NCBI GenBank assembly: GCA_947589675.1
Contig: CANQCI010000008.1
Location: forward strand, 1 to 47,984
Reading direction: 5' to 3'
Length of the DNA: 47,984 nucleotides
DNA from: an uncultured Bacilli bacterium
GTDB taxonomy: Bacteria; Bacillota_I; Bacilli_A; RF39; UBA660
The notes beneath the pieces were generated by a model that was given only the letters and a program-made list of their open reading frames with translations, did no database searches and had not been told where the DNA came from. A program made the position numbers and the translations under genes. The first letter of the stretch is position 1. Each line of letters opens with the position of its first letter. Below, piece by piece: positions 1,810 through 42,036 of this stretch.

Positions 1810-1836
1810 ATTTTACTAAAAAAAAAAAAAAATCAA
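1810..1836 (-). promoter_or_regulatory. Promoter of family member 1 with T15 spacer
   Basis: On the minus strand TTGATT (1831-1836) is followed by TAAAAT (1810-1815) with a 15 nt spacer made almost wholly of a 15-base homopolymer (1818-1832). Spacer length would change with every slippage event. The same T run follows a hairpin-forming stretch at about 1833-1870 downstream of asnB, so it may also be the U-tract of the asnB terminator. Confidence 0.5.
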
Positions 1837-3696: not shown

Positions 3697-3699
3697 CTT

Positions 3700-5652
3700 T
3701 TATTCTCCTTCCGTAAAGTATTTATAATAATCATTTTCTAAAATAAGTCCACTCATATTCATTTTATTAGCCACAATCTTATTCATATTTTGAACATAAT
3801 CCTCAGAAACATTCACATTTTCTTTTGGCACAAATTTTTTACTACTAGCAAAATAAGTGCCATAATCACTAACCCAACTGCGATTACCAAATATTGCTAA
3901 GCCTGGTTCGGTACTTAAGATATCTTTGCCAATTAAAAGTCTTGAGTCATACTTAACCCCAAATAGATTATAAAGAGTTGGTAAAACATCAATTTGACTT
4001 CCGACTTTATCCACTGTTATCTTGGGCATTTTATTATTCCATAAGATAAAGTTACTATGATTTATTTCGACTACACTATCCTTTTCATAACTGGAAGCCT
4101 CATTTACCTCATCAAGGGATAAGTAATAAGGGTAGTGATCACCTACTAAAGCAATGACTGTATTATCTAACTTATTAGCATTAGTTAAATAATTAAGTAA
4201 GTTTTCTAAAGCTTTATCTAATTCAATTTGGGCGGCTATATAAGATAAGACTTTCTCGGAATAATTTAATCCAGCAACTTCCTCCTTATGTTTTCTTCCC
4301 ATCGCCGTATTTTTAAACCCATAATCACCATGCCCGGATACCGTTACATAATAAGTAAAGAATGGTTTATCACTTGTTAAATAATCATTCACGGTGGCAT
4401 CAATCATTTCGACATCACTCTCCGGCCATATATTACAATTAATCTTCTCTTCTAAGCCATTTTTACATCCTGTAAAATTCGTAAAACCTAAGGCTTTTAA
4501 ATATTTATTCCTTGATTGAAAACTATAATTATGGTCATGATAAGCATAAGTATTATACCCCATCTTTTGAAAGACAGTCGCAATCCCAAAGGGAAAACTA
4601 TTTTCCCCCTTCTTCCAAGGCTTTAAAAACCCAGAAGCGGCCACTAAACCGGTTAGCTCTTGAAACTCCCCGCCAATCGTACTACTAATTGTTGGCGTAT
4701 AAAAGTTGGGAAAGTAAAAACCATTATTAATTAATTTATATAATGTAGGCGTTAATTCTTCCGATACCGCAATCTCATTAAAGGATTCTGCCATAAACAA
4801 AATTAAATTCTTATCCTTAAAATAATTAGTATATTCATTTTGTAAAGTCCCAGCTTCATTCTTAAAATAATTGTGCATCTTTGTTAATTCACTACTATTT
4901 GAGGCATTAATTAATTCCTCAAAATTATAATCTAAATTATTATAATCATAGACTATTTCGACAGGCTTGTCTTCTTCCTTTTCTTTTTCTTCATTATCTT
5001 GTTTTTCCGTTATAAGTATTTCTTCATCAAACCCCATAATAGTTCTTTCTAAATCTAAGAAAAAAGCATTAACTACCCCCAGTCTTTTCATCATTAACTC
5101 AGTATTATTAACATGATGATATAACTCATATTCTTCTCCTTTTTTGATATTTAAACTTAAATTATAACCTAAAAATAATAGCACACTTAAAAATAAATAA
5201 AGAGTATTAACTTTAATTTCTTTATGGGGTATTTTAATAAAATTATGCATAATAAGAAGAATGATAAATGGTAAAAAGAATAACAAAATACTTCCGCTAT
5301 TCTTTAGGATTAACCGCATAGCATCCCCAGCAAAATCCGCCACCTGGTCAGTTGCCCATAAAAGAGAAAAATTAAAATAAAACCCAAATATTTTATATAT
5401 ACATAATTCCAAAGAATATAAAAAACCTAATAAAAAAGTAATTAGATAAAAAACTATTTTATTAAAACTACTATTAAATAGATAAGTTAAAAAACTTAAA
5501 GTAACACTCATAAATAAGCAAAAAAATATATTATATAAACTACTTATATTAAATAAAAAATCATTATTTATTATTTTAAAACATATTTCTAAATATAATA
5601 AGATAATAAAATAAATTACCGTTATTTTGGTATTCTTTAATTTATACTTCAT
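3700..5652 (-). CDS. LTA synthase-like sulfatase-family membrane protein
   Basis: This is a 650-residue polytopic protein. Five predicted N-terminal membrane segments (about residues 1-170) precede an acidic linker and an extracellular alkaline-phosphatase/sulfatase-fold domain. Catalytic landmarks are LILFMAESFNE (metal site), SSTIGGEF, where Thr matches the LtaS nucleophile, SGHGDYG and GDHYPYY. Enzymes of this family transfer glycerol-phosphate from phosphatidylglycerol to lipoteichoic acid or related glycans. I start at the ATG at 5652, preceded by GGTGAT. The longer frame opens with a TTG at 5664. It lies directly upstream of asnB as the first gene of a two-gene operon. A TATAAT box (5674-5679) lies just upstream. 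The exact polymer made is unknown. Confidence 0.85.
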   Translation of the reverse strand: MKYKLKNTKITVIYFIILLYLEICFKIINNDFLFNISSLYNIFFCLFMSVTLSFLTYLFNSSFNKIVFYLITFLLGFLYSLELCIYKIFGFYFNFSLLWATDQVADFAGDAMRLILKNSGSILLFFLPFIILLIMHNFIKIPHKEIKVNTLYLFLSVLLFLGYNLSLNIKKGEEYELYHHVNNTELMMKRLGVVNAFFLDLERTIMGFDEEILITEKQDNEEKEKEEDKPVEIVYDYNNLDYNFEELINASNSSELTKMHNYFKNEAGTLQNEYTNYFKDKNLILFMAESFNEIAVSEELTPTLYKLINNGFYFPNFYTPTISSTIGGEFQELTGLVAASGFLKPWKKGENSFPFGIATVFQKMGYNTYAYHDHNYSFQSRNKYLKALGFTNFTGCKNGLEEKINCNIWPESDVEMIDATVNDYLTSDKPFFTYYVTVSGHGDYGFKNTAMGRKHKEEVAGLNYSEKVLSYIAAQIELDKALENLLNYLTNANKLDNTVIALVGDHYPYYLSLDEVNEASSYEKDSVVEINHSNFILWNNKMPKITVDKVGSQIDVLPTLYNLFGVKYDSRLLIGKDILSTEPGLAIFGNRSWVSDYGTYFASSKKFVPKENVNVSEDYVQNMNKIVANKMNMSGLILENDYYKYFTEGE

Positions 5653-6710: not shown

Positions 6711-8712
6711 CACTCTTTTGTTTCTTCATATCATCAACCGCTTCATTTAGAGCATCTTCAATAGTTTTAATATCATCTAAAATCATACTATAACCATACT
6801 CAGCTCCATAATCATATGGTAATTTCTTAATCTCTTTATTTAACTTATGAATATAATTAGTTACTTGTTTTTGACTATACCCTACTAAATATATCACAAA
6901 TTCATTACCATCCGTGCGCATAATTTCACTATTATCAAGTTGGGTCTTAATTAAAGCATTAGCACAAGCTTTAATTTGCTTATCCCCCTCATTATATCCC
7001 TCAACATCATTTATCTCTTGAATCTTATTTAAATCAATCACAATAATGGTCTGAGGATAAATGGTATTATTATTCCAAACACTAATATTTTCATTTAAGA
7101 AATTCCGATTCTTTAAACTAGTAAGTTGATCAATAAACTTTAATTTATCTTCTTTCTTAATCTTTTTGGCAATAATAATCTTTTTACTTTTTCTAATAAT
7201 TAATAAAGCCACAATAATAAAGATTAAAACTAAATAAATAATATATTCAGCAATACTCGATAAAAATGATCCAGTTTTAACAGTTTCATAATGATTATTT
7301 AATCCTTCATTAATAACTTCTTTACTATCTACGACTTCCATATATGTATTAAGTAACTTATATAAAGCACTATTCGTTCTAACTTTAAATTGATATTCTT
7401 TATTAATATTATCTTCAAACCGAATATTATAATCTTTTAAAATACTATCTTTTTGATAATCAAAAATAAATTCATCAATAACTAAATAATATTCTTCATC
7501 TTTTAATTTCTTAGTTTTCTTTTTAAAATCTTTTAAATTTTCATAAGTTTCTATTTTAATATTCTTAACGTTTTTTATATAATCATATAATAAACTATTT
7601 TCTTCCACAAAAACTTTCTTACCATTTAAAGATTTTAAAGACATTATTACTTCATTATTATCTCTTTTGGTACTTATTACATAAGGTATAGCAATACCAT
7701 TAGTTTTATAATAATCATCGTTATTATTATAATAATTAAAATATAAATCGATATCTCCACTGGTAACTGCTTTTTTAAACCGAGCAAAAGACCGATATTT
7801 ATTAAAGTTAAATTCAATATTAGTTAATTCACTAAATTTTTGTAAATAAACCGCAATAATCCCGCCGTATTTGCCCCCCATAATTACTTCATAAGGACTA
7901 GTATTAACAAAGCCATAATTATAAGCAACACTTTGTAAACTATCCACTTCAGTATCACTTATTTTTAAAGATTCCGTAAATGTTTTAAATTCTTCTTCAT
8001 TATAATATTTATTAAAATTATCTAACCAATTAGCATAATATTTATTTAAAACTCTTGCTAAGATACTATCATCTTTTTGCATAGTATAATATACTTTCAT
8101 ATCACTTATATGATAAACAATATGATAATTACTAGCTAATATAACATCTAAATATTCCATTAAAGGTAAAGCTATATAATTAGTTTCATTATCTAAACTA
8201 CTTTTTAAACTATCAATATTTTCATATTCTTTATAAGTTAAATTACTACTATTTATATATTCACTTACATAACTAGTATTACCATTTAAAACACCAATAG
8301 TCTTCCCTCTTAAATTATCACTAGAAGGAATTATTTCATCATTCTTACTTACTAAGACATAATGATCTTCATAGATAACTAAATCTTGGTCACTTATTTC
8401 TTTTTTAACTCCAAAACTAATCCCACTGGGATTACTTCCTATATTAAAAGTAATATAATTTATTTCTAAACCATATTCTTTAGAAAAGTCTTTTAAAAAA
8501 TCATAAAAAACTCCGGAACCATTCTTCCCAAAAACATTAGCATTATTAACAATATTAATATTTTGAATCGTATTTATATTATCATTTATCCAATTTCTTT
8601 CTTCAACTGTTAATTTATTTTGGTCATTTAAAAGCGTAAATACCCCGAAAGTTACGCCACCTAAAATGAGAAGGAGGACAATGATAATAATTACTTTTCT
8701 TAATTTTTTCAT
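6682..8712 (-). CDS. Receptor with two solute-binding domains, TM and degenerate GGDEF
   Basis: This protein has 676 residues. An N-terminal signal-anchor (residues about 5-27) is followed by two tandem type-3 periplasmic-binding-like regions (about 45-250 and 260-480), a transmembrane helix near 490-515 and a GGDEF-like domain starting at DQLTSLKNRNFL. The active-site loop reads RTDGNEF instead of RxGGDEF. The first Gly is Asp and the catalytic/metal Asp is Asn, so diguanylate cyclase activity is doubtful. The domain may bind nucleotide or only signal. Its ATG overlaps the preceding stop codon (TAATG), showing translational coupling to the small membrane protein. I infer that it senses an extracellular amino-acid-like ligand. 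Confidence 0.8.
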   Translation of the reverse strand: MKKLRKVIIIIVLLLILGGVTFGVFTLLNDQNKLTVEERNWINDNINTIQNINIVNNANVFGKNGSGVFYDFLKDFSKEYGLEINYITFNIGSNPSGISFGVKKEISDQDLVIYEDHYVLVSKNDEIIPSSDNLRGKTIGVLNGNTSYVSEYINSSNLTYKEYENIDSLKSSLDNETNYIALPLMEYLDVILASNYHIVYHISDMKVYYTMQKDDSILARVLNKYYANWLDNFNKYYNEEEFKTFTESLKISDTEVDSLQSVAYNYGFVNTSPYEVIMGGKYGGIIAVYLQKFSELTNIEFNFNKYRSFARFKKAVTSGDIDLYFNYYNNNDDYYKTNGIAIPYVISTKRDNNEVIMSLKSLNGKKVFVEENSLLYDYIKNVKNIKIETYENLKDFKKKTKKLKDEEYYLVIDEFIFDYQKDSILKDYNIRFEDNINKEYQFKVRTNSALYKLLNTYMEVVDSKEVINEGLNNHYETVKTGSFLSSIAEYIIYLVLIFIIVALLIIRKSKKIIIAKKIKKEDKLKFIDQLTSLKNRNFLNENISVWNNNTIYPQTIIVIDLNKIQEINDVEGYNEGDKQIKACANALIKTQLDNSEIMRTDGNEFVIYLVGYSQKQVTNYIHKLNKEIKKLPYDYGAEYGYSMILDDIKTIEDALNEAVDDMKKQKSDGSEKQSKK

Positions 8713-9206
8713 TACTGTTCTTCGCTTTCTACTTTCGTATTATTATTCCAAACTACCCCAGAGCCACTGACATTCTTAGCCCCCATGATGGTGAAGCCTT
8801 CACTATTTTCCGAGCTATCACAAACCAAGGTGAAGTCAATATCATAATAGCTTAAAAGATCTTCACTAAACTTTTCTAATGATTGTGCCGCTTTACTTTC
8901 CGCTTCCACCAAAGTTGTATCATTTTCATAGGCAATCCGGATATAGATTACTCTTCCCCCTGAGGTTTTAAAAGTTACATCTTTAATTAAGGCATCGCTT
9001 TCTAAAGCATTAACATAATCATTTTGAAAACTTTCCGTAATTGGATACTTTTCAATATCTTCTAATCGGTCACCATAAGTAGTTTTACTTCCCCCTAAAA
9101 AGAATGTAAAACAAACAGTTAATATGGCAATAAAACAAATTAAAAGAATCAATAATAAACAGATTAATACTTTATTTTTAGCCCATAGTTCCTTAATTTT
9201 TCTCAA
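8712..9206 (-). CDS. Small membrane-anchored protein of unknown function
   Basis: The product has 164 residues with one N-terminal membrane segment (about residues 13-36), a GG turn and an extracellular alpha/beta domain of about 125 residues. I do not recognise the family. The start is a TTG at 9206, with GAGGTGAAATAA upstream. Its stop overlaps the next start in TAATG, so it is tightly linked to the solute-binding/GGDEF receptor and may be an accessory subunit. Confidence 0.7.
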   Translation of the reverse strand: MRKIKELWAKNKVLICLLLILLICFIAILTVCFTFFLGGSKTTYGDRLEDIEKYPITESFQNDYVNALESDALIKDVTFKTSGGRVIYIRIAYENDTTLVEAESKAAQSLEKFSEDLLSYYDIDFTLVCDSSENSEGFTIMGAKNVSGSGVVWNNNTKVESEEQ

Positions 9207-9233
9207 AATTATTTCACCTCTTTGGATAAATCA

Positions 9234-9262
9234 ATTATACTACATTATATTTCGAGAAGCAA
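9234..9262 (-). promoter_or_regulatory. Sigma-A promoter of the GGDEF-like/BrkB operon
   Basis: On the minus strand TTGCTT (9257-9262) and a perfect TATAAT (9234-9239) are separated by exactly 17 nt. The first start codon of the operon (9206) lies about 20 nt past the expected transcription start. Confidence 0.75.
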
Positions 9263-9307
9263 ATTTTTATCTTTTAAAATCCAAAAAGATGGTAAAGTAC
9301 GGTTCTT

Positions 9308-9455
9308 AACATTAAGGAGTGATAAGTTAAAACATCACTTTTTTTCGTATTTTTAAAAGAAATAACTTTCTATAAATTATTGTATCACGTTTGTTATTTA
9401 TGTCTTTTTTGGTAAATAAAAAAGCAATGAAAATTTATTTCATCACTTTAATCTT
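9308..9455 (+). repeat. MITE-like element, left inverted copy
   Basis: This ~148 bp stretch is, over nearly its whole length, the reverse complement of 11661-11813 with scattered mismatches. Its outer end reads GTTCTTAACATTAAGGAGTGAT (from 9302), split here as GTTCTTAACATT and AAGGAGTGAT. The other end lies about 8 bp past the stop codon of the gene at 9464-11551. Internal hairpins (GTGAT/ATCAC and ATGAAA/TTTCAT arms followed by T runs) could act as transcription terminators on both strands. No ORF is inside. Confidence 0.75.
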
Positions 9456-9463
9456 TATATCCT

Positions 9464-11551
9464 CTATCCTAATATTATCGGATTACTACTTGTTCCCTCA
9501 CCCCAGACATACATCACATTGGAGTTGAGATAGAAGGACGGGCGCGCGGCATAGCTAGCAGTAGTCGTCAAAGGCGCAGTCACACACCCAAACGTATTAG
9601 CACCGAAGGCGTGAGTAGGAGCACTTGTATTTGGCGTGATAAACCAAAAATCATCACCAATCCAAGTCCAGTTATCCCAGGCGGCTAACCGATAATCTTG
9701 CAAAGTTGATACATATCCGGGCAAGCTCCATCTATCTTTCGTAGCCCCATAGTAATAATCGGTAACATACATCAAACCAATTTTGGCTGAATGAGTTAAT
9801 GGGGTCTTGGAATCGCCAAGTTCATTTTCATAAGCGGTGCGTGCTCCTTGTTCATGACCTAAAGGATATGTCATGCCACCCACTTGCCATTCAGTCGTAG
9901 CAATCATGTTAGCCCAATCATTTAATTTTCCAAGATATGTTTCATTTAAATTATGCGTATTTAATTCACTATTGCTCCAAACATTTTGCCCATTTTTATC
10001 CCAAGTGTACCTTGGCCACTCATCATGATTGCCAAGATAGGTATTATATGGACCTCGAGAGCCAGAACTAGCAAAATCACCATCTTCACCGAGTAAATCT
10101 TTCCCCGCTTCATCGGCTTTCACTAATTTTATTTGATATTCATTTCCTATTTTAAAAGCTCCGATTATCCGATAGAGATTTTCGACATTTGAACAATCCC
10201 CACCAAAACAAACAAAGTTTTTAATGTTATTATCACTTATGTAACCAGCGGCAATAGCCTTGGTTAATGCTTGTTTTAATGATGTTAAATTTTCTATATT
10301 TGGATTATAACTTAATGTGTATTTAGGATTAGTTGCACAATAATCATTACTGTTTGTAGATAGAGTTCCATTACAATCTAATTTGATTATATCATTGATA
10401 GTACCATATTGAGCATCCTTGGCTCTTTGGGTTAATTGGTAGTCACCACCTGTAAAGCGATAGGATAAATCATTGGCATCTTGCTCAGTTATAGTTCCAT
10501 TATGATAATATAACTTAGTATCTTCGTACTTACTATTTTTATTATATAAGCCTATTACACATTCTGCTAAATTGCCTCCATTTGGACAAGCATCAGCCAA
10601 TGTCTTTTTCGGAGTTATACTTTCTTCAATTACTTTTACTATTTCTTCATCATTAAAGGATATCTTCGTACTTACTTCATATTTCTTACTTTCCGTTAAA
10701 TTATCAAATGTATAACTATAAACATTTGTATCTTCATTACTGGCTTCATGCCAATCTTTATCTTCATCAGCATTAATTTTAAATGACACATTATCAATCG
10801 TATCCTCATAATCAGATATTGTAGCTATTACTTTCATACTGTCATTAGTTATATTCGTTGTTTCAACTTTGACATTAGGTAAGGTTCCAGCTGTTATAAT
10901 GGCTTGAGCATTAAATGTTTTTCCGGTATTTACTTGTTGGTCATAATCATGATTGATTAATATTATTTTTATTTGCCATGTTTCATCTGCTTTACCATTA
11001 TTTTCATCATCACTTGGTTCAGCACTTATTTCTTCGGTTAATTTAATTGGAATTAAACCGGTGGCTGTTGTTATATCAAATCCTTTAAGAGGATTTTCTT
11101 CATCATCAACATCTGCAACTGATACATATTTTATTGATGTATCATCTAAAGTTTCTAAAGGCTTACCATCTGGATTAATTACTTGTAATATTAGTTCAGG
11201 AATACCTGCTTTGGTATAAACAAATGGATTATTTATTAAATTTAAGTAAACATTATAAGTTTCGGAAGCTGTATAATTACCATTGTTCGCTACCAAGTGG
11301 GCTGACACGGTAGTGTCTCCCTCTTGGTTTGGTTCTCCACTTTTAAAGTTATCACTATTGGCGTCAATAGTAATGGGATTTCCCTTGGTGAATGTCAGTG
11401 AGTCTGTTGTTCCTGCTTCAACATTAATATTAGCACTACCACCTGTTCCCTTTTGGGCGGCAAAGTAGGCATAAGTTGCTCCGATTGCCACCAAAAGAAA
11501 TGCAAGTAATGCTATGACAATTAACTTTTTATTTTTCTTAATTTTATCCAT
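9464..11551 (-). CDS. SipW-type signal surface protein, family member 2
   Basis: This is a 695-residue exported protein. After MDKIKKNKK comes a hydrophobic signal ending GATYAYFAAQKGTGGSA, then INVEAGTTDSLTF and a TasA/camelysin-like first domain, a fibronectin-like linker (about residues 240-330), and a C-terminal lectin-like domain (VCFGG, LYRIIGAF, IGLMYVTDYYYG, ARPSFYLN). This C-terminal pattern resembles DUF6273/C-type-lectin-like folds. I start at the ATG at 11551, with GAGGGTG upstream, because the longer frame runs through the promoter T tract. The 3' end (about 9500-9660) is richer in G and C than the rest. The gene with its promoter lies between two inverted MITE-like copies. It is probably a matrix or adhesion protein. 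Confidence 0.85.
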   Translation of the reverse strand: MDKIKKNKKLIVIALLAFLLVAIGATYAYFAAQKGTGGSANINVEAGTTDSLTFTKGNPITIDANSDNFKSGEPNQEGDTTVSAHLVANNGNYTASETYNVYLNLINNPFVYTKAGIPELILQVINPDGKPLETLDDTSIKYVSVADVDDEENPLKGFDITTATGLIPIKLTEEISAEPSDDENNGKADETWQIKIILINHDYDQQVNTGKTFNAQAIITAGTLPNVKVETTNITNDSMKVIATISDYEDTIDNVSFKINADEDKDWHEASNEDTNVYSYTFDNLTESKKYEVSTKISFNDEEIVKVIEESITPKKTLADACPNGGNLAECVIGLYNKNSKYEDTKLYYHNGTITEQDANDLSYRFTGGDYQLTQRAKDAQYGTINDIIKLDCNGTLSTNSNDYCATNPKYTLSYNPNIENLTSLKQALTKAIAAGYISDNNIKNFVCFGGDCSNVENLYRIIGAFKIGNEYQIKLVKADEAGKDLLGEDGDFASSGSRGPYNTYLGNHDEWPRYTWDKNGQNVWSNSELNTHNLNETYLGKLNDWANMIATTEWQVGGMTYPLGHEQGARTAYENELGDSKTPLTHSAKIGLMYVTDYYYGATKDRWSLPGYVSTLQDYRLAAWDNWTWIGDDFWFITPNTSAPTHAFGANTFGCVTAPLTTTASYAARPSFYLNSNVMYVWGEGTSSNPIILG

Positions 11552-11577
11552 TTTTTCATACACCCTCAATTTTACCC

Positions 11578-11605
11578 ATACTATCAAAAAAAAAAAAAAA
11601 GTCAA
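11578..11605 (-). promoter_or_regulatory. Promoter of family member 2 with T15 spacer
   Basis: TTGACT (11600-11605) and TAGTAT (11578-11583) on the minus strand are separated by 16 nt, nearly all of it a T15 homopolymer (11586-11600 on the other strand). The start codon at 11551 follows at a normal distance with a GAGGGTG ribosome-binding site. Slippage in the homopolymer would alter -35/-10 spacing. Confidence 0.7.
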
Positions 11606-11660
11606 GAGAACATTTGTTTGCATTTATTCAAAAAAAGATTTTTTTCTTTAATCAGTTCTT

Positions 11661-21428: not shown

Positions 21429-21986
21429 TTAATAGCCTTTCTTTTGATAATATTCAGCTAATTCTTTAAAGCGATTAAAGTGAACTACTTCCCTTTGTCT
21501 TAAAAATAATAAGGGAGCAATAACATCAGGGTCAGTAGCTAAGTCTAATAAATTTTCATAAGTTGCCCTAGCTTTTTGTTCGGCAGCCATGTCTTCATAA
21601 ATATCGGCTAAAGGATCTCCAGTTACAGCAAAATATTTGGCATCCCATTGAACCCCATTAGCATCAACTGGATAAATACCTTTACTATGTTCAGTATAAT
21701 AACCATCTAAGCCCGCTTCTTTAATTTCGGCAATTGTGGCATCTTTCATTAGTTGATGAACTATTGCCGAAACCATTTCCATATGCCCAAGTTCTTCGGT
21801 AGCAATATCGTTTAATAAAGCCTTTCCTTTATCATCGGGCATATTAAATTTTTGAGAAAAATATCGCATTGATGCAGATAATTCTCCATTAGGACCGCCA
21901 AATTGAGTAATAATATTTTTAGCCATTTTTAAATCTTTTTTCGTTATACTAACAGGATAAGCTAAATGTTTAGTATATTTAAACAT
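21429..21986 (-). CDS. cotJC: Spore coat CotJC / manganese-catalase family protein
   Basis: This 185-residue ferritin-like four-helix protein has the di-metal ligands of Mn-catalases (E in GGPNGELSASMRYF, EELGHMEMV, E in DMAAEQKARATYE, REVVHFNRF). CotJC is a spore-coat protein of endospore formers that may detoxify peroxide. The ATG at 21986 has GGGAGGTG upstream and overlaps the cotJB stop by 8 nt. The frame could extend to 22028, but that part lacks a site. It forms an operon with the CotJA/CotJB-like gene. Confidence 0.9.
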   Translation of the reverse strand: MFKYTKHLAYPVSITKKDLKMAKNIITQFGGPNGELSASMRYFSQKFNMPDDKGKALLNDIATEELGHMEMVSAIVHQLMKDATIAEIKEAGLDGYYTEHSKGIYPVDANGVQWDAKYFAVTGDPLADIYEDMAAEQKARATYENLLDLATDPDVIAPLLFLRQREVVHFNRFKELAEYYQKKGY

Positions 21987-22425
21987 ATTTAGCACCTCCC
22001 TCATTTTGCCATGGCCATGGTTCTTCAATCCATTTAAACTTTTCTAAAGATTCATTATCAATTAATTCTAATGGTCCAAATTTTTTAACATATTCCATTT
22101 CTTTGGTACATAATTTTTCAACTAATTCATGAAACTTTTTTAATATTTCTTTATTTTCCGCATGTAAATCTAAATATAAATTAAGATCATTAATAGCAAA
22201 ACATAATTCCATAATTTCTAATAATAATTCTTCTCTTTTAGTTTTCGGTATTATTTTACTATAAGTCATATTTTTATATGGTTTATATTCTGATTCATAC
22301 ATATTACCTCTTAAGAAACCTTCTTTAACACTCGTTAAATCTGGACAATTTTGGTTATCTTTAGTAAATATTTCGGGATTGGTATTACCAAAGCTTATAA
22401 ATCCAAGTGCATCATCAAATAACAT
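21979..22425 (-). CDS. cotJB: Spore coat CotJB with fused CotJA-like N-terminus
   Basis: The protein has 148 residues. Its C-terminal ~85 residues are CotJB-like (ELLLEIMELCFAINDLNLYL, KFGPLELI, WIEEPWPWQNEGG). The first ~60 residues contain PDLTSVKEGFLRGNMYESEY and KPY, which resemble the GTLW-x-LY-x-PY core of CotJA, normally a separate small protein. I therefore read it as a CotJA-CotJB fusion. TAGGAGG lies before the ATG at 22425. Confidence 0.8.
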   Translation of the reverse strand: MLFDDALGFISFGNTNPEIFTKDNQNCPDLTSVKEGFLRGNMYESEYKPYKNMTYSKIIPKTKREELLLEIMELCFAINDLNLYLDLHAENKEILKKFHELVEKLCTKEMEYVKKFGPLELIDNESLEKFKWIEEPWPWQNEGGAKYV

Positions 22426-29177: not shown

Positions 29178-31070
29178 ATGAATAATAATGTACCGACTGT
29201 GGATGATACAGTCAATAATGAAAATCAAAATTCTCTTAACAACGGGTTTTCAAGCGGACCAAATGCTGGAGCAAATGGAGGCACTCCTTTAAATGAAGTC
29301 CCTACTATGCCTAACCAAGCAAATCAAAATTCTCTTAACAACGGGTTTTCAAGCGAACCAAATGCTGGAGCAAATGGAGGCACTCCTTTAAATGAAGTCC
29401 CTACTATGCCTAACCAAGCAGGTCAAAATCCGGCGATAGATGCCAGTTTTCCTGCTACAACCCCACCTAATACAACAACCCTTGGCAATGCTCAAGCAAG
29501 CCAAATGCCTAATCAAAATAATGCTCCTAAAAACAAAGGAACCATTAAAATCGCTATTATTGTTATTGCTATTCTTTTAATTGGCGGATTAGCCTTTGGA
29601 GTTTATGCGTTGTTCTTTGCTCCTAGCAAAACTGATATGTTAAAAAGTGCTATCAATGATGTTTATGCAGGATTTAGTTCTAGTTTAGAAAAATTGGAAA
29701 AGCAAAAAGTAGACATAGATATTTTTAATGATTCCCTTAAATTAGAAGGTGATTTTCAAATTGCTGGTTCTACTTTTGCTAAATTAAAAGATGATAAAAT
29801 TGATTTTACCCTTGGTCTTGATTATAAAAATAAATTAATGGAAGCCAGTGGTAAACTAAGTGAAAAAAATAAAGATTTACTTGATGGAAAAATTATTTTA
29901 AAAAATAATCATTTATATTTAAAAAGTGATAGTCTTTTAAATAATGTTTATGATTTAGGTTCTTATAATTTTGATGACCATGTTGATTTAGGTGATTTAG
30001 AAAATGATTTAAATAGTGTTGATTTACCATCAGCTAGTGATATTGATTTTATCGTTAAAGAATTTAAAGATGCTCTTTTAAATTCTTTAGATGAAAAAAA
30101 CATGAAGCAAGAAAAAGTAGATTTAAGTATTAATAATACTAAAGTTAAAGCCACTAAAATAACTTATACTATTAATAAAGAAACAATGTTAAAGTTAGCT
30201 AAAAATTTAGCAACAGAATTAAATTCTAATGATAACTTAAAAGCTAAATTAGTAGATATATTTAAAATTAATAAAGATGATTATCAAGATGCTTTAGATG
30301 CTATGCAAGATGAAAAGGCATTTGATAGTTTTGAGGGTGAAGGTGAATTTTCTATCTATGCAACTGGTGTTACTCATCAATTCGCCGGGGCAGAATTAAT
30401 TGTCAAAGATGGAGGCAAATTAGCCTTTTATAACAGTGGTGATAATGCTTATTTCATCTTTAATGAAGAAGAAAGTAATGAAACATTAGAAATAACCTCC
30501 GTAAAGGAAAAAGATATTTATGATGTTCGCATCACTATGACTGAGGATAATAAAGCAATTGAAGTTGCTAAACTTACCATAAGAAAACTTACCAATGAAG
30601 AAATTGACCTAGATTATGATTTAAATATTGAAGATACTAAAGCTAGTGGTTCACTTAAATTAACTGGTAAACAAGATAATAAAAATATAACTGGAAAAGT
30701 TGAATTTTCAGTAAATTATACTGAGGACAAAGAAAAATATGATGTTAGCTTCACAGCTAATTATAAAGTAACAGCTGGGCAAAAAATAGCTACTGATAAT
30801 GTATCAACAGCCATATCATCTGAAAATATAACTGATGAAGATATGACTAAAGTTAAGGATAAATTAACAGATTTAGAAAGTTCAAATATATATGACTATT
30901 TAAAAGATGATTTTAATTTTACTAGTGAAATTATCGATTCTTTAGATGAAAGTTCTAATTATAGTTCAATTTATGATAATCAAGAATGTTGGGATAATTA
31001 TTGGGATGCTTTATATAATAAACAAACCTTTGATGGTACTTATGATGAATATTACAAGGCTTATTGTTAA
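29178..31070 (+). CDS. Large membrane-anchored extracellular protein with Asn-rich repeats
   Basis: The product has 630 residues. The N-terminal ~120 residues are cytoplasmic and low-complexity, with two near-identical 33-residue repeats (SLNNGFSS ... TPLNEVPTMPNQ). A transmembrane helix follows (TIKIAIIVIAILLIGGLAFG), then about 480 extracellular residues rich in K, D, E and N in a beta-rich pattern of alternating strands. No catalytic motif is seen. The ATG at 29178 has AGGAAGTGAG upstream. The earlier TTG at 29172 is too close to it. The family is not recognised; a lipoprotein-like or envelope role is possible. Confidence 0.72.
   Translation: MNNNVPTVDDTVNNENQNSLNNGFSSGPNAGANGGTPLNEVPTMPNQANQNSLNNGFSSEPNAGANGGTPLNEVPTMPNQAGQNPAIDASFPATTPPNTTTLGNAQASQMPNQNNAPKNKGTIKIAIIVIAILLIGGLAFGVYALFFAPSKTDMLKSAINDVYAGFSSSLEKLEKQKVDIDIFNDSLKLEGDFQIAGSTFAKLKDDKIDFTLGLDYKNKLMEASGKLSEKNKDLLDGKIILKNNHLYLKSDSLLNNVYDLGSYNFDDHVDLGDLENDLNSVDLPSASDIDFIVKEFKDALLNSLDEKNMKQEKVDLSINNTKVKATKITYTINKETMLKLAKNLATELNSNDNLKAKLVDIFKINKDDYQDALDAMQDEKAFDSFEGEGEFSIYATGVTHQFAGAELIVKDGGKLAFYNSGDNAYFIFNEEESNETLEITSVKEKDIYDVRITMTEDNKAIEVAKLTIRKLTNEEIDLDYDLNIEDTKASGSLKLTGKQDNKNITGKVEFSVNYTEDKEKYDVSFTANYKVTAGQKIATDNVSTAISSENITDEDMTKVKDKLTDLESSNIYDYLKDDFNFTSEIIDSLDESSNYSSIYDNQECWDNYWDALYNKQTFDGTYDEYYKAYC
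29223..29420 (+). repeat. 99-bp tandem repeat, two copies
   Basis: 29223-29321 and 29322-29420 are almost identical at the DNA level. A visible difference changes a Gly to a Glu codon. A third, degenerate unit begins GGTCAAAATCC. The repeat is in frame (33 codons). Confidence 0.9.
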
Positions 31071-31732: not shown

Positions 31733-32194
31733 ATGAATAATACAAATAACACAAATAATTCAAATAACAATCAAGGAAATTGCATTAATGAAATTTTGTG
31801 TGTCATTTTAGTTTTACAAGAAAATGCATGTCCAGATAATTGTTTACAAACTTGTGATCGTCCAGTTCTCGGTGGAGGAGCAAATTGTTTAATTTGTAAT
31901 ACTCGTCCAGTTATGCTTTATACTTGTTGTGGTAATGGTGTCCCATGGAGTGTGACTACCACCAAAGATTCCACAGAAAGTTGTGCGGGCGAAGGAACTA
32001 CCGGAACATGTTCATCAGTATTTAGAGTTGAAAAAATTGAGGGTAATTGTTGTACATTCCGAGTTTTAGCTGAAAATGATGATCCAACAAGTATATATCC
32101 ATATGTTGCGACCAATGTCTTTTTCACAATGGATTGTAGTTGTTTATGTAGTATAAGATGTTTATCAGATACATACGTTGATTGTGTTTGTTAA
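31733..32194 (+). CDS. CotY/CotZ-family spore outer-coat protein
   Basis: The product has 153 residues and about 20 cysteines. After an Asn/Thr-rich start come NCINEILCVILVLQENACP, VFRVEKIEGNCCTFRVL and FFTMDCSCLCSIRCLSD, which follow the order and spacing of Bacillus CotZ/CotY/ExsY (IFRVE ... ATLELL ... VDLSCFCAIQCL). These proteins self-assemble into disulfide-linked lattices of the spore crust or exosporium. AAGGGTG lies before the ATG, and a terminator follows the stop directly. It supports a spore-forming lifestyle. Confidence 0.8.
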   Translation: MNNTNNTNNSNNNQGNCINEILCVILVLQENACPDNCLQTCDRPVLGGGANCLICNTRPVMLYTCCGNGVPWSVTTTKDSTESCAGEGTTGTCSSVFRVEKIEGNCCTFRVLAENDDPTSIYPYVATNVFFTMDCSCLCSIRCLSDTYVDCVC

Positions 32195-33956: not shown

Positions 33957-35568
33957 GAATACATTATATAATAATGAAACACAAATTAAAAGTAGTTTTG
34001 ATAAATTTTTACAAAAATCTTAATTCTAATAGTAAATACAATTTTTATAACTTGAGTTGTATTTACTTTCAGAAATAGGATTGTATTTACTATTAGAATT
34101 ATGATAATTATAAAATAAAGAATGATAATATTTTACTATTTGCATTTACTTTGAGAATATATAAAATTAATAATTAAAATTCTTTGATTCTTTCTTATAA
34201 GAAAGAATGCCTAACCGGCGAGGTTATTCCTTAACCTTTCTCGGCTTCTTTGCTTACTTTCTTTTACGGAAAAGAAAGTAAGGCCTATTCGGCGAGGATT
34301 ATAATTTTCTCCCTTAAAAATAACTAATTTAAAATTGTATTTACTCTTAGAATTTATTAAAATAGTTAAAAAAATCGGCTTATAAATCTTGCCAATTTTT
34401 AATTGTATTTACTTTTAGACTTTATTTTCTTAATTTGTCAGTTGCATTTACTTTTAGAATTCACCAATTTTTACAAAAAATTCCTAATATGAGAAAAACT
34501 CAACTTAATTTTCTTCCATCATTAATGTATGGCATGATTGATGCTGAATCCTGTGCTTCTTCTGATATCGCCAAATGTTTAAATGAAGAAAAAAAATGGG
34601 CTCAGTATGAGTCTATTGTTAAGCGTATTAATCGCTTTTGGAATAATAAACATTTTAATGGTAAGGAATTTTTCAACAAAGCAATTAGTTCAGTTATTGA
34701 CCAATATAAACTTAAACATTCTGATAATAAAATACATATCTCCTTTGATCATATGTTTTCTCATGACAATTATACTGTTTTAATGTTTACTTTAAGAGTT
34801 GGTACTCAAGGTATTCCAATTTATTTTGAGTGTTTTAAAGGAAGTAACAATAATGATACTTTTGAATTTGAATCTATAAAAAAAGGCATTGATGCTGTCG
34901 ATGAATTATTTAAAGATAAAGGCTTCAAGCTTATTTTCTTAGCTGATAGATGGTTTGATTCTACCCAAATTTTTGATTATATTGATAAGTTAGGTCATAC
35001 TTATTGTATTAGATTAAAAGGTAATATTGTTGCTTATAAAGATAATAAAAAAATTATAGTAAAAAAACTTAAACATCGTAAATATCATGCTGTTGTTCAT
35101 AATGATGTTTATATTACTCATAAACGCTTTAAAACTAATATTGTTTACTCTAGTTCCATTGATACTTCTACCCCTTGGATTATTGCTACTAATGATGATG
35201 TTTTACATGCTGTTCAAAATTATAGCCATAGATTTGGTTCCATTGAATCTGTTTTTAAAAATCAAAAATCCAATGGATTTAATCTAAATAAAATCTCTAA
35301 TATGAGCCTTCGTACTTTCACTAACATGTATTCTGTTTTATGTATATGTGTGGTTTATCTTACTATTCTTGGCACTGATTTTTCTAAAAATTCTAAATGC
35401 TATAAAGATGTTTGTATTAATACTCATAAAAACTACAATATCAATGGGAAAAAAGTAAAAAGAAGAATTATGTCTTTATTTAATACTGGTCTTACTCTAT
35501 TTAAAATCGCTCATAATTCTTTAAAATATATTCGCTTACCGTTTAGTTTTAAGCTGTACGACATTTAA
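33955..35568 (+). pseudogene. IS4-family DDE transposase, split by an insertion
   Basis: The N-terminal 22 codons (33955-34020, MNTLYNNETQI ... FLQKS, stop) and the main part (from about 34466 to 35568) join cleanly in frame as ...DKFLQKIPNMRKTQ when the 448 bp insert and one copy of a 14-bp duplication are removed. The main part has the IS4 triad: ISFDHM (first Asp), FLADRWFDS (second Asp) and YSHRFGSIESVFKNQKS (Y-x2-R-x3-E-x6-K). A TTG at 34435, inside the insert, opens a 377-codon frame, so a shortened, possibly still active, protein could be made. Residual activity is uncertain. Confidence 0.85.
34018..34465 (+). mobile_element. Iteron-rich MITE inserted in the transposase gene
   Basis: This 448 bp non-coding insert is flanked by 14-bp direct copies of AATTTTTACAAAAA (34004-34017 and 34466-34479). 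Its ends carry inverted AATTCTAATAGTAAATACAA (34022-34041) and TTGCATTTACTTTTAGAATT (34442-34461). The ~20-bp motif recurs in direct orientation at 34057, 34081, 34140, 34335 and 34403. Between lie a perfect 22-bp palindrome (34187-34208), a hairpin with 12-bp stem (34254-34281) and two copies of GCCTANNCGGCGAGG (34209, 34283). Repeated end motifs suggest multiple transposase-binding sites, as in IS21- or Tn7-like elements. It is likely mobilised in trans. Confidence 0.8.
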
Positions 35569-35765: not shown

Positions 35766-37913
35766 TTATACGACAATACGGAATGGATGGTCAACATCAC
35801 CTAGTGAATCATCAACTTTAATTTTTACATCTGTGTTAAGATAAAAGGACGGGCGAATCCCGATCGCAATGTCGTTGACGCCGTAGTAGTTAACCACATA
35901 CCCGTCGTTGTAGACAAGGAACGCATAGTTGGAATCGCTGGAGTTGCGCGATATTGTCCATTCATAAACATTATTATATAACCAGTTATTTGCTCGGTTA
36001 CTATTACCATTATTATCATAATTATCTAAAGTTGATATCCAATTTTTTTGTTCACTGGCAAATCCATAGTCCGAAGTATACATCAAACCGATTTGAGCCG
36101 ATACTGTTGGATTTGAAGCTATCTCGGCATCATACATTACTTTTGGTGTTACTTGATGTGAGTTATGTCCTCCGACATGCCACGTTGTTGTTGCTATTTT
36201 ATTTGTCCACGTTGTACCTAGAAAATTTAAGTAACCACTCTCTCCATTATTTAACGCTTGATATAATGTGCTACTTTCCCATGTATTATCAGCTGTTTTA
36301 TTCCAGTAAAACCCATCACTTGGAGCTACTTTTACTCTTTTCAAAGTATCGTAACTTCCTGTACTTGGCTTACCATCACTATCTATTCCTAATTCAGCAC
36401 TGGTTATGTATTCCGACTTGATTAATTTTATTTGGTTGCCAAATACACCAATTATTCGATATAAATTAGTATCAGGACAAGTATCTCCACCATTGTTATA
36501 ATCTTCACTACCATTTCCAAAACAAACAAAGTTATATGGATTATTTCCTGAATAACGATAACTATTATCACCAGCACTATTTTCTAAATCAGTTGTATGT
36601 TGTAATAAAGCTTCTGTTCCTTCTCCTACTTTTGTACCAACTTTACTTATAACAAAATCGGTTAAATTTTGCTCTTTTGGTAATTCGCTTGTTTTCACTT
36701 CTATTGTTTTAATATTCGAAAATACTCCCTCAGCATTTTTAGCTTGAATAATTATAGTATAAGTAGTACTATCCTTTAACCCTGTTATTGTATTTGTTGT
36801 ATTATTAAACTCTGTCCATTCTCCTCCTACAATTTTAGCTCGATATTCTAATGTATCATCTTGATAAGTTAAGGTTATTTTAGATGCAGTTGCACTTGTT
36901 GTTACCTCACCAACTTCTGGTAATACTCCATCCTTAGCTGTAACTACTGTTTCATAAATATTACTTTTATATCCTTGTTCATCGGTAGTATAAGTATATA
37001 TTTTATAATTTTGATTTTCTTCTATTTCTTCACTAAAAGTATGCGTGTTACTTGTTTCTTCTATATATTCTTTTCCTAAAGCATTAGCTATACTTGATAA
37101 CTTTATAGTTTCAGGACTTTCGCTTGTTTTTTCAATGGCAAAATAATAATTAGCTATTTTACTTGTTCCAGTTGTTATATCAGCAACAGCTTCAATACTA
37201 TTTGTTGTAGCTGTAGTTTTAAGAGTATTTACTTCACTTAATTTAAAATCTTCATCAGTTGTAATATAAATACTTCCTTCAAAAGTTTTGCCAGTATTAT
37301 TATTTTGGTCTTGGTCTAAATTAACTAATGTGGCTTCCACTTGCCATGTTTGTTCCGTACCCTCAGCTTCATTAGCATCTATTTCATAATCACTAACTAT
37401 TTTATAAACTTGATTACTACTTGTTGTTATATCATATCCCTTATAAGAAGCATTTTCTTTATCAGTTACATCTTCATAATATTTTAATCCTTCAACTGTT
37501 TCCGTATATTCTTCACTATTAGGATTAGTTATTTTTAAAAGTAATTCAGGTGAACTATTATCCTTGGTATAAACTAAATCATTATTTTCTACTACTAAAA
37601 AGATATTATATGTTTCATGAGCACTATTTGTATTATTGTTAGGAATTAATTTAGCTTTAACTGAGGCTGACTGGGTTATACTTTGATTACTTTTGCCAAA
37701 ATTATCTTGATTAGCAACAATAGTGATATCTCCCTCTTCATTATTAAAGGTAAGTGAGTCCGTTGTTCCAGCTCCGACTTCAATGTTAGCACTACCTCCA
37801 GCTCCCCTTTGGGCAGCAAAGTAAGCATAAGTCGCTCCAATCACTGTTATGAGGAGTAATAATAAAGCTATAATTGCTACCTTTTTATTTTTTATATTAT
37901 CACTTTTTTTCAT
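35766..37913 (-). CDS. SipW-type signal surface protein, family member 3, with atypical 3' segment
   Basis: This is a 715-residue exported protein. The signal ends GATYAYFAAQRGAGGSA, followed by IEVGAGTTDSLTF, a TasA-like domain, two fibronectin-like modules (about residues 225-410) and a C-terminal lectin-like domain (NFVCFGNGS, LYRIIGVFGNQIKLIKSEY, IGLMYTSDYG, NVYEWTISR, IGIRPSFYLN). The last ~35 codons before RPSFYLN (about 35846-35950) end in G or C in 28 of 35 cases, most being NNC, while the rest of the gene is AT-rich. This points to a variable cassette of different origin. The promoter carries a (TA)9 tract. Role: probably adhesion or biofilm matrix. Confidence 0.87.
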   Translation of the reverse strand: MKKSDNIKNKKVAIIALLLLLITVIGATYAYFAAQRGAGGSANIEVGAGTTDSLTFNNEEGDITIVANQDNFGKSNQSITQSASVKAKLIPNNNTNSAHETYNIFLVVENNDLVYTKDNSSPELLLKITNPNSEEYTETVEGLKYYEDVTDKENASYKGYDITTSSNQVYKIVSDYEIDANEAEGTEQTWQVEATLVNLDQDQNNNTGKTFEGSIYITTDEDFKLSEVNTLKTTATTNSIEAVADITTGTSKIANYYFAIEKTSESPETIKLSSIANALGKEYIEETSNTHTFSEEIEENQNYKIYTYTTDEQGYKSNIYETVVTAKDGVLPEVGEVTTSATASKITLTYQDDTLEYRAKIVGGEWTEFNNTTNTITGLKDSTTYTIIIQAKNAEGVFSNIKTIEVKTSELPKEQNLTDFVISKVGTKVGEGTEALLQHTTDLENSAGDNSYRYSGNNPYNFVCFGNGSEDYNNGGDTCPDTNLYRIIGVFGNQIKLIKSEYITSAELGIDSDGKPSTGSYDTLKRVKVAPSDGFYWNKTADNTWESSTLYQALNNGESGYLNFLGTTWTNKIATTTWHVGGHNSHQVTPKVMYDAEIASNPTVSAQIGLMYTSDYGFASEQKNWISTLDNYDNNGNSNRANNWLYNNVYEWTISRNSSDSNYAFLVYNDGYVVNYYGVNDIAIGIRPSFYLNTDVKIKVDDSLGDVDHPFRIVV
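35846..35950 (-). other. GC-rich, NNC-codon tract: candidate variable repeat
   Basis: Reading minus, the sequence changes abruptly after TGG ACA ATA to codons such as CGC, AAC, TCC, AGC, TTC, GTC, TAC, GAC and GGC, and returns to normal use after CGC CCG TCC. AAC-derived NNC codons next to a conserved GC-rich end are the signature of diversity-generating retroelement variable repeats. No template repeat or reverse transcriptase is in this window. Confidence 0.45.
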
Positions 37914-37938: not shown

Positions 37939-37966
37939 ATTATATATATATATATATATTAGTCAA
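37939..37966 (-). promoter_or_regulatory. Promoter of family member 3 with (TA)9 spacer
   Basis: On the minus strand TTGACT (37961-37966) and TATAAT (37939-37944) are 16 nt apart. The spacer and part of the -10 box form a (TA)9 run (37941-37958). Each gain or loss of one unit would change spacing by 2 nt. Confidence 0.75.
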
Positions 37967-40070: not shown

Positions 40071-40099
40071 ATTATATAAAACTTTCTTTTTTAAATCAA
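40071..40099 (-). promoter_or_regulatory. Promoter of tyrS
   Basis: TTGATT (40094-40099) and TATAAT (40071-40076) on the minus strand with a 17-nt spacer set the leader start near 40065. Confidence 0.78.
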
Positions 40100-42036
40100 G
40101 CTATTTTAAATGGTTTTAACACACTTCCATCAGTTCCTGTGGTATTTAATTGTACGGTATCATTTAAATAAAATACGGGACGAACCCCAAGAGTATACAT
40201 CAAATGCCCAGTATTAATGGGGAATATACTACCACTGTAATTAATAGAATAAGCATGAACTGTCCCTGCTCCATCAGTATTAGTATATGGAGTTATTGTC
40301 CATTCATAAACAGCATTATATAGCCAATTATTTTCCCAGTTAGAACAACCAGTATTATTATATTCAGAAAGTTTTTTTGACCAAATTTCTGGAATGGTTG
40401 CATAAGCATAATCACTTACATACATAAGCCCCACATTAGCTGTAACTGTTTTAGTCGTTAAACTTTCGGCATCATACATGGCTTTGGGCGTTATTTCATA
40501 TTCAGTATGTCCTCCAACATTCCAATTGACATTGGCAATTTTACTTTGCCAATCAGCACCTAGTTTACTCCAGTAACCATCATCACCATTTAACTTTTTA
40601 TATAGTTCACTTTCTTCCCAATTATTACTATTAGTATTTATAACTCCTGACCAAGCAAAGCCATTTAAATTAAGTACATCCCCCTTTACTCTTTTTAACC
40701 CCTCATTTTCTTTTCTAGAATCAGGTTTACCTTGATCAGCTATTCCTAATTCATCACCCGTAAGATATTCGGATTTTATTAATTTAACTTGATTACCAAA
40801 TAAACCAATTATCCGATATAAATTGGTATCAGGACAAGTGGCATCTTTACCCTGATTATAGTTTTCACTACCTTCACCAAAACAAACAAAATTATTAGGA
40901 TTACTTCCCGCATAACGATAACTTCCATCTTGAGCACTATTATCAAGTTCTGCTGTATGATGATATAAATTAGTTTTGGTAGATGCATAATTATTTAATT
41001 TTTCAAGACAAGTATTAAGATTTCCGCCTGTTTCACAAACATCAGCTAAAGTATAACTATCACTTATTTTGACATTAAAGGAATTTAGTAATTCAGGATT
41101 ATTTTCATAAGTAACTTTGGTTTCAATTTCATACTTTTTATCAGGTTCTAAACTTTCAAAAGTATAACTATAAACTGGACTGGTTTCTAAATCTAAACCT
41201 TGAATAGGTTCTAACGCTCCTTGATGCCATTCAGCATCCCCTTCGATTTGAAAAGCAACACTATTAATATTACCTACATAATCATTTATGGTTGCCATGA
41301 CTTTTAAGCCAGTATCCCCAACTTCATTGGTTGTTAAATCAACATCAGGGATAGTAGTATGACTAACTATTGCTTGAGCTTTAAAAGTCTTCCCCGTATT
41401 TACTTGTTGATCTTGATCTAAATTAACTAAAATAACTTTAATTTTCCATGTATGATCAGTTTTACCATTTTTTTCTGGTTCCATTTCATTAGGATTAGCA
41501 CTAATCGGATGCATCTTTTTTATAGCCACTAAACCACTTGTCGTAGTAATATCAAAACCTTTAATTTGGGAACCATCTTCTTCCGTACTTTCAATAGTAA
41601 CGGGGGTTAAACCATCGATACTTTCTACTTCATTGCCATCAGGATCAATTACTTGTAAAACTAATTCGGGTGTGCCAGAACTCGTATAAACAAAAGGATT
41701 TTTTTCAATATTTAAATAAACATAATATTGTTCAGTTGCCGTATTATTAGTATTATTAGCCACCAAATGAGCTCTTACTTCGGTTTCGCCATCTCTATTA
41801 CCTTTGCCCTTGGCAAAGTTATCGCTGTTAGCATCAATGGTTATGGCATCACCATTATCAAAGGTAAGAGAATCCGTGGTACCCGCTTCCACATTAATTT
41901 CCGCACTTCCCCCACTACCTCTTTGAGCCGTGAAATAAGCATAAGTCGCACTTATAACGGTTATTAGTAATAGTAACAAAACAATAATACTAGTTTTTTG
42001 ATTTTTAGTCATTTTCTTTTCTTTATTCTCTTTCAT
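40096..42036 (-). CDS. SipW-type signal surface protein, family member 4
   Basis: This 646-residue exported protein has a signal ending SATYAYFTAQRGSGGSA, then INVEAGTTDSLTF, a TasA-like domain, one fibronectin-like region and the C-terminal lectin-like domain (NFVCFGEGS, LYRIIGLFGNQVKLIKSEYL, VGLMYVSDYAYA, AVYEWTITP, GVRPVFYLN). It is closest in layout to members 2 and 3, but its 3' end keeps the normal AT-rich codon use. AGGATAAATAA precedes the ATG. Its promoter has palindromes instead of simple repeats. Likely a cell-surface or matrix component. Confidence 0.87.
   Translation of the reverse strand: MKENKEKKMTKNQKTSIIVLLLLLITVISATYAYFTAQRGSGGSAEINVEAGTTDSLTFDNGDAITIDANSDNFAKGKGNRDGETEVRAHLVANNTNNTATEQYYVYLNIEKNPFVYTSSGTPELVLQVIDPDGNEVESIDGLTPVTIESTEEDGSQIKGFDITTTSGLVAIKKMHPISANPNEMEPEKNGKTDHTWKIKVILVNLDQDQQVNTGKTFKAQAIVSHTTIPDVDLTTNEVGDTGLKVMATINDYVGNINSVAFQIEGDAEWHQGALEPIQGLDLETSPVYSYTFESLEPDKKYEIETKVTYENNPELLNSFNVKISDSYTLADVCETGGNLNTCLEKLNNYASTKTNLYHHTAELDNSAQDGSYRYAGSNPNNFVCFGEGSENYNQGKDATCPDTNLYRIIGLFGNQVKLIKSEYLTGDELGIADQGKPDSRKENEGLKRVKGDVLNLNGFAWSGVINTNSNNWEESELYKKLNGDDGYWSKLGADWQSKIANVNWNVGGHTEYEITPKAMYDAESLTTKTVTANVGLMYVSDYAYATIPEIWSKKLSEYNNTGCSNWENNWLYNAVYEWTITPYTNTDGAGTVHAYSINYSGSIFPINTGHLMYTLGVRPVFYLNDTVQLNTTGTDGSVLKPFKIA

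Follow-up and report, generated by a model that had tools for sequence, protein, structure and literature searches.

A gene for a 715-residue protein in an uncultured Bacilli bacterium is preceded by a run of TA dinucleotides that fills the gap between its -35 and -10 boxes. The question raised by this locus is whether the run is a switch, in which changes of length alter the spacing of the promoter and with it transcription, or a fixed piece of AT-rich promoter DNA. The analysis covers the window, by which we mean the whole stretch of 47,984 nucleotides that was analyzed, the genome to which it belongs (G000, a 1.457-Mb assembly) and related genomes.

Anatomy of the locus and its protein family

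Reading of the minus strand bore out the position that the first-pass annotation had given to the TA run: TTGACT, a 16-nt spacer and TATAAT precede the 715-aa gene (Table 1). Apart from a single A adjoining the -35 box the spacer consists wholly of TA repeat, and the tract continues into the -10 hexamer with its last four bases. The leader between TATAAT and the start codon is short and contains a G-rich stretch; the genes next upstream are on the same strand. From the dinucleotide frequencies of the window itself, a TA run of 19 nt is expected 4e-5 times per window and 0.0012 times per 1.457 Mb, and a (TA)7 search of the whole genome returned this run as the only one of at least 14 nt. Chance AT-richness was rejected as an explanation on the basis of this expectation per genome and of the reversed-pattern controls given below, which were near zero. 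Elsewhere in the window, a transposase-like ORF (by reading of the sequence) is located at 34435-35568, directly past the 3' end of the 715-aa gene, and a 632-aa ORF has near its start, at 29222-29429, an in-frame tandem duplication of 99 nt (2.1 copies, 97%).

Table 1. Positions of promoter elements, genes and the variable repeat in the window
Feature	Position	Strand	Remarks
-35 hexamer TTGACT	37966-37961	-	+ strand reads AGTCAA at 37961-37966
-10 hexamer TATAAT	37944-37939	-	+ strand reads ATTATA at 37939-37944
Promoter spacer, 16 nt	37945-37960	-	between TTGACT and TATAAT
TA tract, 19 nt	37941-37959	-	9.5 units (copies), 100%
715-aa ORF	35766..37913	-	ATG at 37913, 25 nt past the -10 box; end at 35766
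DGR variable repeat (VR)	35842-35950	-	matches template repeat on contig C37, within C37:15150-15419
Second repeat-spaced promoter	11578..11605	-	TTGACT, 16-nt spacer T14GA, TAGTAT; T15 run 11586-11600
Third repeat-spaced promoter	1810..1836	-	TTGATT, 15-nt spacer T13AG, TAAAAT; T15 run 1818-1832
Family member without repeat spacer (comparison)	40096..42036	-	

The same annotation had counted the gene as member 3 of a family. Its membership stands, but the size of the family was understated: the protein has 89 matching segments in its own genome, and 48 family gene starts were collected from the stretches of the genome that were examined. Family proteins have a short basic N-terminus followed by a hydrophobic segment that closes with (I/V)(G/S)ATYA(Y/F)F, and many have a conserved C-terminal part. 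In the 715-aa protein the N-terminal hydrophobic segment ends in IGATYAYF and the C-terminal part is DUF6273-like. Twelve aligned family C-termini hardly vary before they reach a hypervariable stretch, which is followed by RPxFYL; identity to the window protein is 65-75% for nine of the 11 others and 51-53% for two. Pfam DUF6273 is matched by seven of these 12 C-termini (best E 1.2e-8), and the window protein itself is not among the seven. In profile searches the 715-aa protein showed no Pfam match at E 0.01 and no match to a pilin family, and none was found among the PDB sequences of solved structures. Its first 40 residues contain no cysteine, so a lipobox cysteine is lacking. A structural model of the C-terminal 300 residues has a mean pLDDT of 36.6 and is unusable for recognizing a C-type-lectin-like or Ig-like fold around the variable repeat. 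The N-terminal hydrophobic segment and the size of the family fit an exported protein, and location at the cell surface is inferred from these sequence features. No close named relative of the gene was obtained; the only locus found is 41% identical and belongs to an uncultured Bacilli MAG.

Repeat-spaced promoters in the genome and the genus

Two further promoters of the window, with poly-T spacers (Table 1), had been overlooked by the first-pass annotation, as had the recurrence of repeat-spaced promoters throughout the genome and the genus. The second promoter precedes a family gene with a likely ATG at 11551 (ORF 9464..11623) and the third a family gene that starts at 1784 and extends past the window edge. 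Many family promoters are of the design CTTGA(C/T)-poly(T)-(G/A)(A/G)TA(G/A)(T/A)AT. The genome contains 18 runs of 12 or more T, each of them located, on the coding strand, in a spacer of the -35/-10 type: 13 before a family gene, four at contig ends with the flank of a family promoter and one, on contig C30, before another ORF. Thus 17 of the 18 runs belong to promoters of this one extensive family of paralogues.

A count that weighs against a switch comes from the 40 family starts with enough upstream sequence, of which one has a TA spacer, eight have a pure poly-T spacer and 31 fall in a class of others that lack a pure repeat spacer within 100 nt upstream. Only these 100 nt were read, and the class of others includes interrupted, contracted and more distant tracts. 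The nearest relative of the window promoter in the genome, that of a paralogue on contig C19, has a non-repetitive spacer and homology that extends well upstream; the repeat is therefore not needed for a working promoter. Contigs C13, C14, C41 and C43 of the same assembly end in or beside poly-T promoter tracts, which may be due to repeated promoters or to mixtures of lengths in the population.

Within the genus, the TA promoter pattern CTTGN1-6(AT)7 occurs in eight of 30 genomes, and the reversed control pattern gave one match in all 30. Raw counts of the TA pattern, 2 in the window's genome and 7, 26, 32, 47, 23, 19 and 50 in the other positive genomes, include overlapping registers, and a pattern with (AT)7 is blind to short tracts. 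The poly-T promoter pattern was found in ten of the 30 genomes (control 0). In the wider bacterial family the TA pattern is present in 25 of 386 genomes, mostly once or twice. By hand tally, 67 of the 86 distinct long TA runs in genomes G019, G023 and G024 sit 1-6 nt after CTTG; 13 of the remaining 19 look like promoters whose -35 box resembles TTTACA or TTGCAA, two are located at contig starts and have a -10 side of the family type and no -35 box, and four are not family promoters. The search for TA runs outside the CTTG context misses runs that begin with T and end with A. For the most part, the genes downstream of TA promoters encode proteins of the ATYA(Y/F)F type or short proteins anchored in the membrane, and some read as acyltransferase-like and lipoprotein-like ORFs. 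In G051, a genome from another genus of the same bacterial family, a tandem array consists of five related genes, each with a TTGACA-(TA)n-TATAAT promoter.

Orthologous copies of the window promoter were sought by DNA search and not found: 22 of the 29 further genomes of the genus gave partial matches, none of which ran end to end. Several of them had their start within the TA tract and pointed to the TA-promoter families. Two contigs of G019, C25 (L332) and C46 (L333), share an upstream sequence at their very start (first 43 nt) that lacks a CTTG box ahead of the TA tract; either the upstream end takes an alternative form here or the assembly is responsible.

Spacer lengths and what may explain them

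The earlier proposal that the spacer is variable in length is supported by the family-wide use of repeat spacers and by the lengths that these spacers have. Pure poly-T spacers in the genome measure 15, 15, 16, 16, 16, 17, 18, 18, 18, 18, 19, 20 and 20 nt, with one of the 13 at 17, whereas T-tract spacers of the same design that are broken by substitutions measure 17, 17 and 17 nt (Fisher p 0.007). Two sites without a readable -35 box are omitted from this set, one at a contig end (L065) and one that is not a family promoter (L064), and the T-count filter that was used misses a promoter contracted to T8 (L057) and the C30 promoter. We read these lengths as canonical where slippage would be blocked and as wandering where it would be possible.

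The spacers of 84 TA promoters, a set which covers only part of the sites in G018, G022, G025 and G027, measure 13 (7), 15 (59), 16 (1, the window), 17 (13), 19 (2), 21 (1) and 23 nt (1). They step by two nucleotides, with the 16 nt of the window as sole exception. Support comes also from paralogues that differ only in tract length: in eight of the 16 within-genome pairs with at least 90% identical downstream sequence the spacer length differs, and the near-identical promoters of the five-gene array in G051 have spacers of 15, 17, 17, 21 and 17 nt. Of 17 plain TTGAC-TATAAT promoters in the sequence examined, 13 have spacers of 16-18 nt and not one has 15 nt, whereas the repeat promoters peak at 15 nt (13 of 21). 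The peak is compatible with a population whose switches are for the most part off or low, with some on; that 15 nt is simply the preferred length in TA promoters cannot be excluded. The 16-nt allele of the window is predicted to be in the active range; without expression data, the hints that transcription depends on tract length are only indirect, namely the 17 nt of the broken tracts and the 16-18 nt of most plain promoters.

A static promoter element is one thing to set against a switch, the TA and T tracts being a preferred AT-rich spacer (for flexibility, bending or strand opening) that is copied with duplications, and the length differences neutral noise. The dominance of one length, 15 nt, in 59 of the 84 TA promoters and the occurrence of the promoters as duplicated families speak for such an element. 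However, an AT-rich static spacer need not be a perfect repeat, and two unrelated repeat types fill the same gap in one family. Because the broken T tracts are at 17 nt while the pure ones scatter, and plain promoters avoid 15 nt, we consider a static element unlikely on balance.

It is also conceivable that promoter-plus-gene units spread by recombination or insertion with the repeat as boundary, any effect on expression being secondary. Two family genes on contig C10 of G019 (L336), which are recent duplicates, match between 2132-4105 and 7899-9908. The match begins exactly at the C of CTTG, at the -35 box, and ends just past the stop codon, and the flanks of this pair are unrelated and of housekeeping type, as if promoter plus gene had moved as a unit. 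Upstream identity is likewise low in the 16 within-genome pairs mentioned above, homology being lost upstream of the promoter. On the other side, the homology of the other pair on this G019 contig begins about 41 nt further upstream, homology starts before the tract and not inside it, the window promoter is homologous to that of the C19 paralogue well upstream, and no recombinase or target site was identified. A boundary role of the repeat thus seems quite improbable to us. That the scatter is no more than polymerase stutter or mis-assembly at repeats, with tract lengths in MAGs being unreliable, is very hard to maintain in spite of the four contigs ending in or beside poly-T tracts, since tracts with matching flanks recur in many independent MAGs of the genus, steps of two nucleotides and broken tracts of 17 nt are not products of stutter, and the array of G051 has clean length differences within a single contig.

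We regard as the best reading, and as quite probable, phase variation in which slipped-strand events alter promoter spacing, extended over a family of surface-type proteins and combined with diversification by a retroelement. Replication slippage would add or remove TA units and lengthen or shorten the gap of a sigma-70-type promoter by 2 bp at a time, by which transcription of the 715-aa surface-type protein would toggle between near-optimal and poor spacing. By the same logic TA or poly-T tracts may control many other family members in the genome and across the genus, and each cell would express a random subset of them. That spacing sets expression, and that lengths change within a population, are inferences; a change in TA number within the species at the window tract is inferred from relatives of the locus. 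A scan of viral contigs for strain variation at the window promoter gave no matches, and the genus set, with one genome per species and assemblies without reads, does not show variation between strains at the locus. Tract lengths in a short-read MAG are possibly off by one unit.

The retroelement layer and relation to known systems

A variable repeat had also been suspected in the gene, and it is real. It matches a template repeat that lies beside a reverse transcriptase on another contig, and the differences are adenine-specific, with 13 of 34 template adenines changed versus four of 72 other bases (Fisher p 5e-5). Ten variable repeats, on separate contigs or in separate places, have together 179 of 342 template adenines changed versus 58 of 715 other bases. 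The template repeat on C37 adjoins a 358-aa reverse transcriptase (RVT_1, E 2e-18), and the gene beside it is Avd-like (NF033474, E 4e-9, below the curated cut-off). The marks of a DGR target are thus present: a reverse transcriptase and an accessory gene next to the template repeat, and a variable repeat that differs from the template mainly at adenines. The DGR would, separately from the promoters, rewrite the C-terminal variable repeat of the 715-aa gene and of nine or more further family members at dispersed sites; its activity is inferred. Repeat-spaced promoters are found before DGR targets on C4, C7 and C29 as well as before the window gene, and a target on C43 has an interrupted tract. 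Relatives of the DGR reverse transcriptase occur in 23 of the 30 genus genomes. The search of these 30 gave no match in G023, G024 and G027, three of the TA-richest; therefore, repeat promoters and DGR can occur apart and their coupling is not general.

The comparison with the hif fimbriae of Haemophilus made by the first-pass annotation is apt, as a TA run occupies the -35/-10 gap in both systems. A (TA)9-11 tract in the hifA/hifB promoter of Haemophilus influenzae is reported to control expression, and some strains carry, upstream of hifA, an A17 or A12 tract in its place (PMC2651432). Whereas hif is a single divergent chaperone-usher fimbrial locus, the promoters described here belong to dozens of unlinked, singly transcribed genes in unrelated, Bacilli-like bacteria, there is no pilin or chaperone, and a DGR appears to act on some of the genes. 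At the window locus, a chaperone-usher pilin with the divergent hifA/hifB arrangement is not found.

Two switches of mycoplasmas offer further comparisons. In the Vlp lipoproteins of Mycoplasma hyorhinis the length of a homopolymer in each promoter sets the on or off state (PMC10502178, citing Citti and Wise 1995), and in Vmm of Mycoplasma mycoides subsp. mycoides SC insertions and deletions of dinucleotides in the promoter spacer switch transcription (PMC10502178, citing Persson 2002). Like Vlp, the present genes are a paralogous surface-type family with homopolymers in promoters. Vlp has poly-A tracts, coding repeats and a small lipoprotein cluster, whereas the tracts described here are poly-T and TA, the genes are dispersed over the genome, a lipobox cysteine is absent and C-terminal variation is ascribed to the DGR. 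Mechanistically, Vmm is by analogy the nearest case, but it is described as a single surface protein and not as a genus-wide set. The simple repeat between -35 and -10 that characterizes hif, Vlp and Vmm is present at the window locus; judged by analogy, the arrangement works like these three and belongs to none of their gene families. The window ORFs at 21429-22425 and 31733-32194 are presumably spore-coat type proteins, CotJ- and CotY/Z-like. Together with nearby cell-wall enzymes they point to a host that has a wall and may form spores, in contrast to the mycoplasmas with similar switches.

DGRs with DUF6273 target domains are described from Faecalibacterium prophages (PMC11792537), and DGRs with several targets are known (PMC6642488). 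The reverse transcriptase, the Avd-like gene, the template repeat and the adenine-directed variable repeats are shared with multi-target DGRs. The difference is that here at least ten targets are located on separate contigs or in separate places of a cellular genome, several of them under repeat-spaced promoters.

A wider interpretation, for and against which we find the case evenly balanced, is a two-layer antigenic variation in uncultured Bacilli-like bacteria, with dozens of dispersed promoter-plus-gene units switched at random by T or TA tracts and, in many of these species, with binding tips of family proteins edited by a retroelement. If it is true, both which protein is shown and what that protein binds would vary. 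With dozens of putatively switchable promoters per genome in several species, the spacer-repeat switch would be a dominant promoter design of large surface-type families in probably commensal uncultured bacteria; in the portions of the literature available, phase variation by spacer repeats is documented chiefly in a few pathogens, at single loci or in small clusters. Repeat-spaced promoters here meet targeted DGR mutagenesis in the same gene. A description of repeat-spaced promoters on such a scale, or of their combination with DGR targets, was not found in the literature consulted, which consisted mostly of titles and beginnings of abstracts. On and off states and binding-site variants could be read together from metagenome reads, which lets one ask whether antigenic variation is used, and whether against host immunity, phages or ligands.

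Other parts of the genome contain related genes in different settings. At about 46,000-53,500 of contig C5 (L034/L067) family-like ORFs are clustered with pilin-like ones (MNNKGFIFIETIITVVIL), and beyond them lies a second reverse transcriptase of 435 aa, which by reading resembles group II intron enzymes. Contigs C35 (L070) and C13 (L068) carry tandem arrays of short ATFAYF proteins (270-311 aa) with ordinary promoters.
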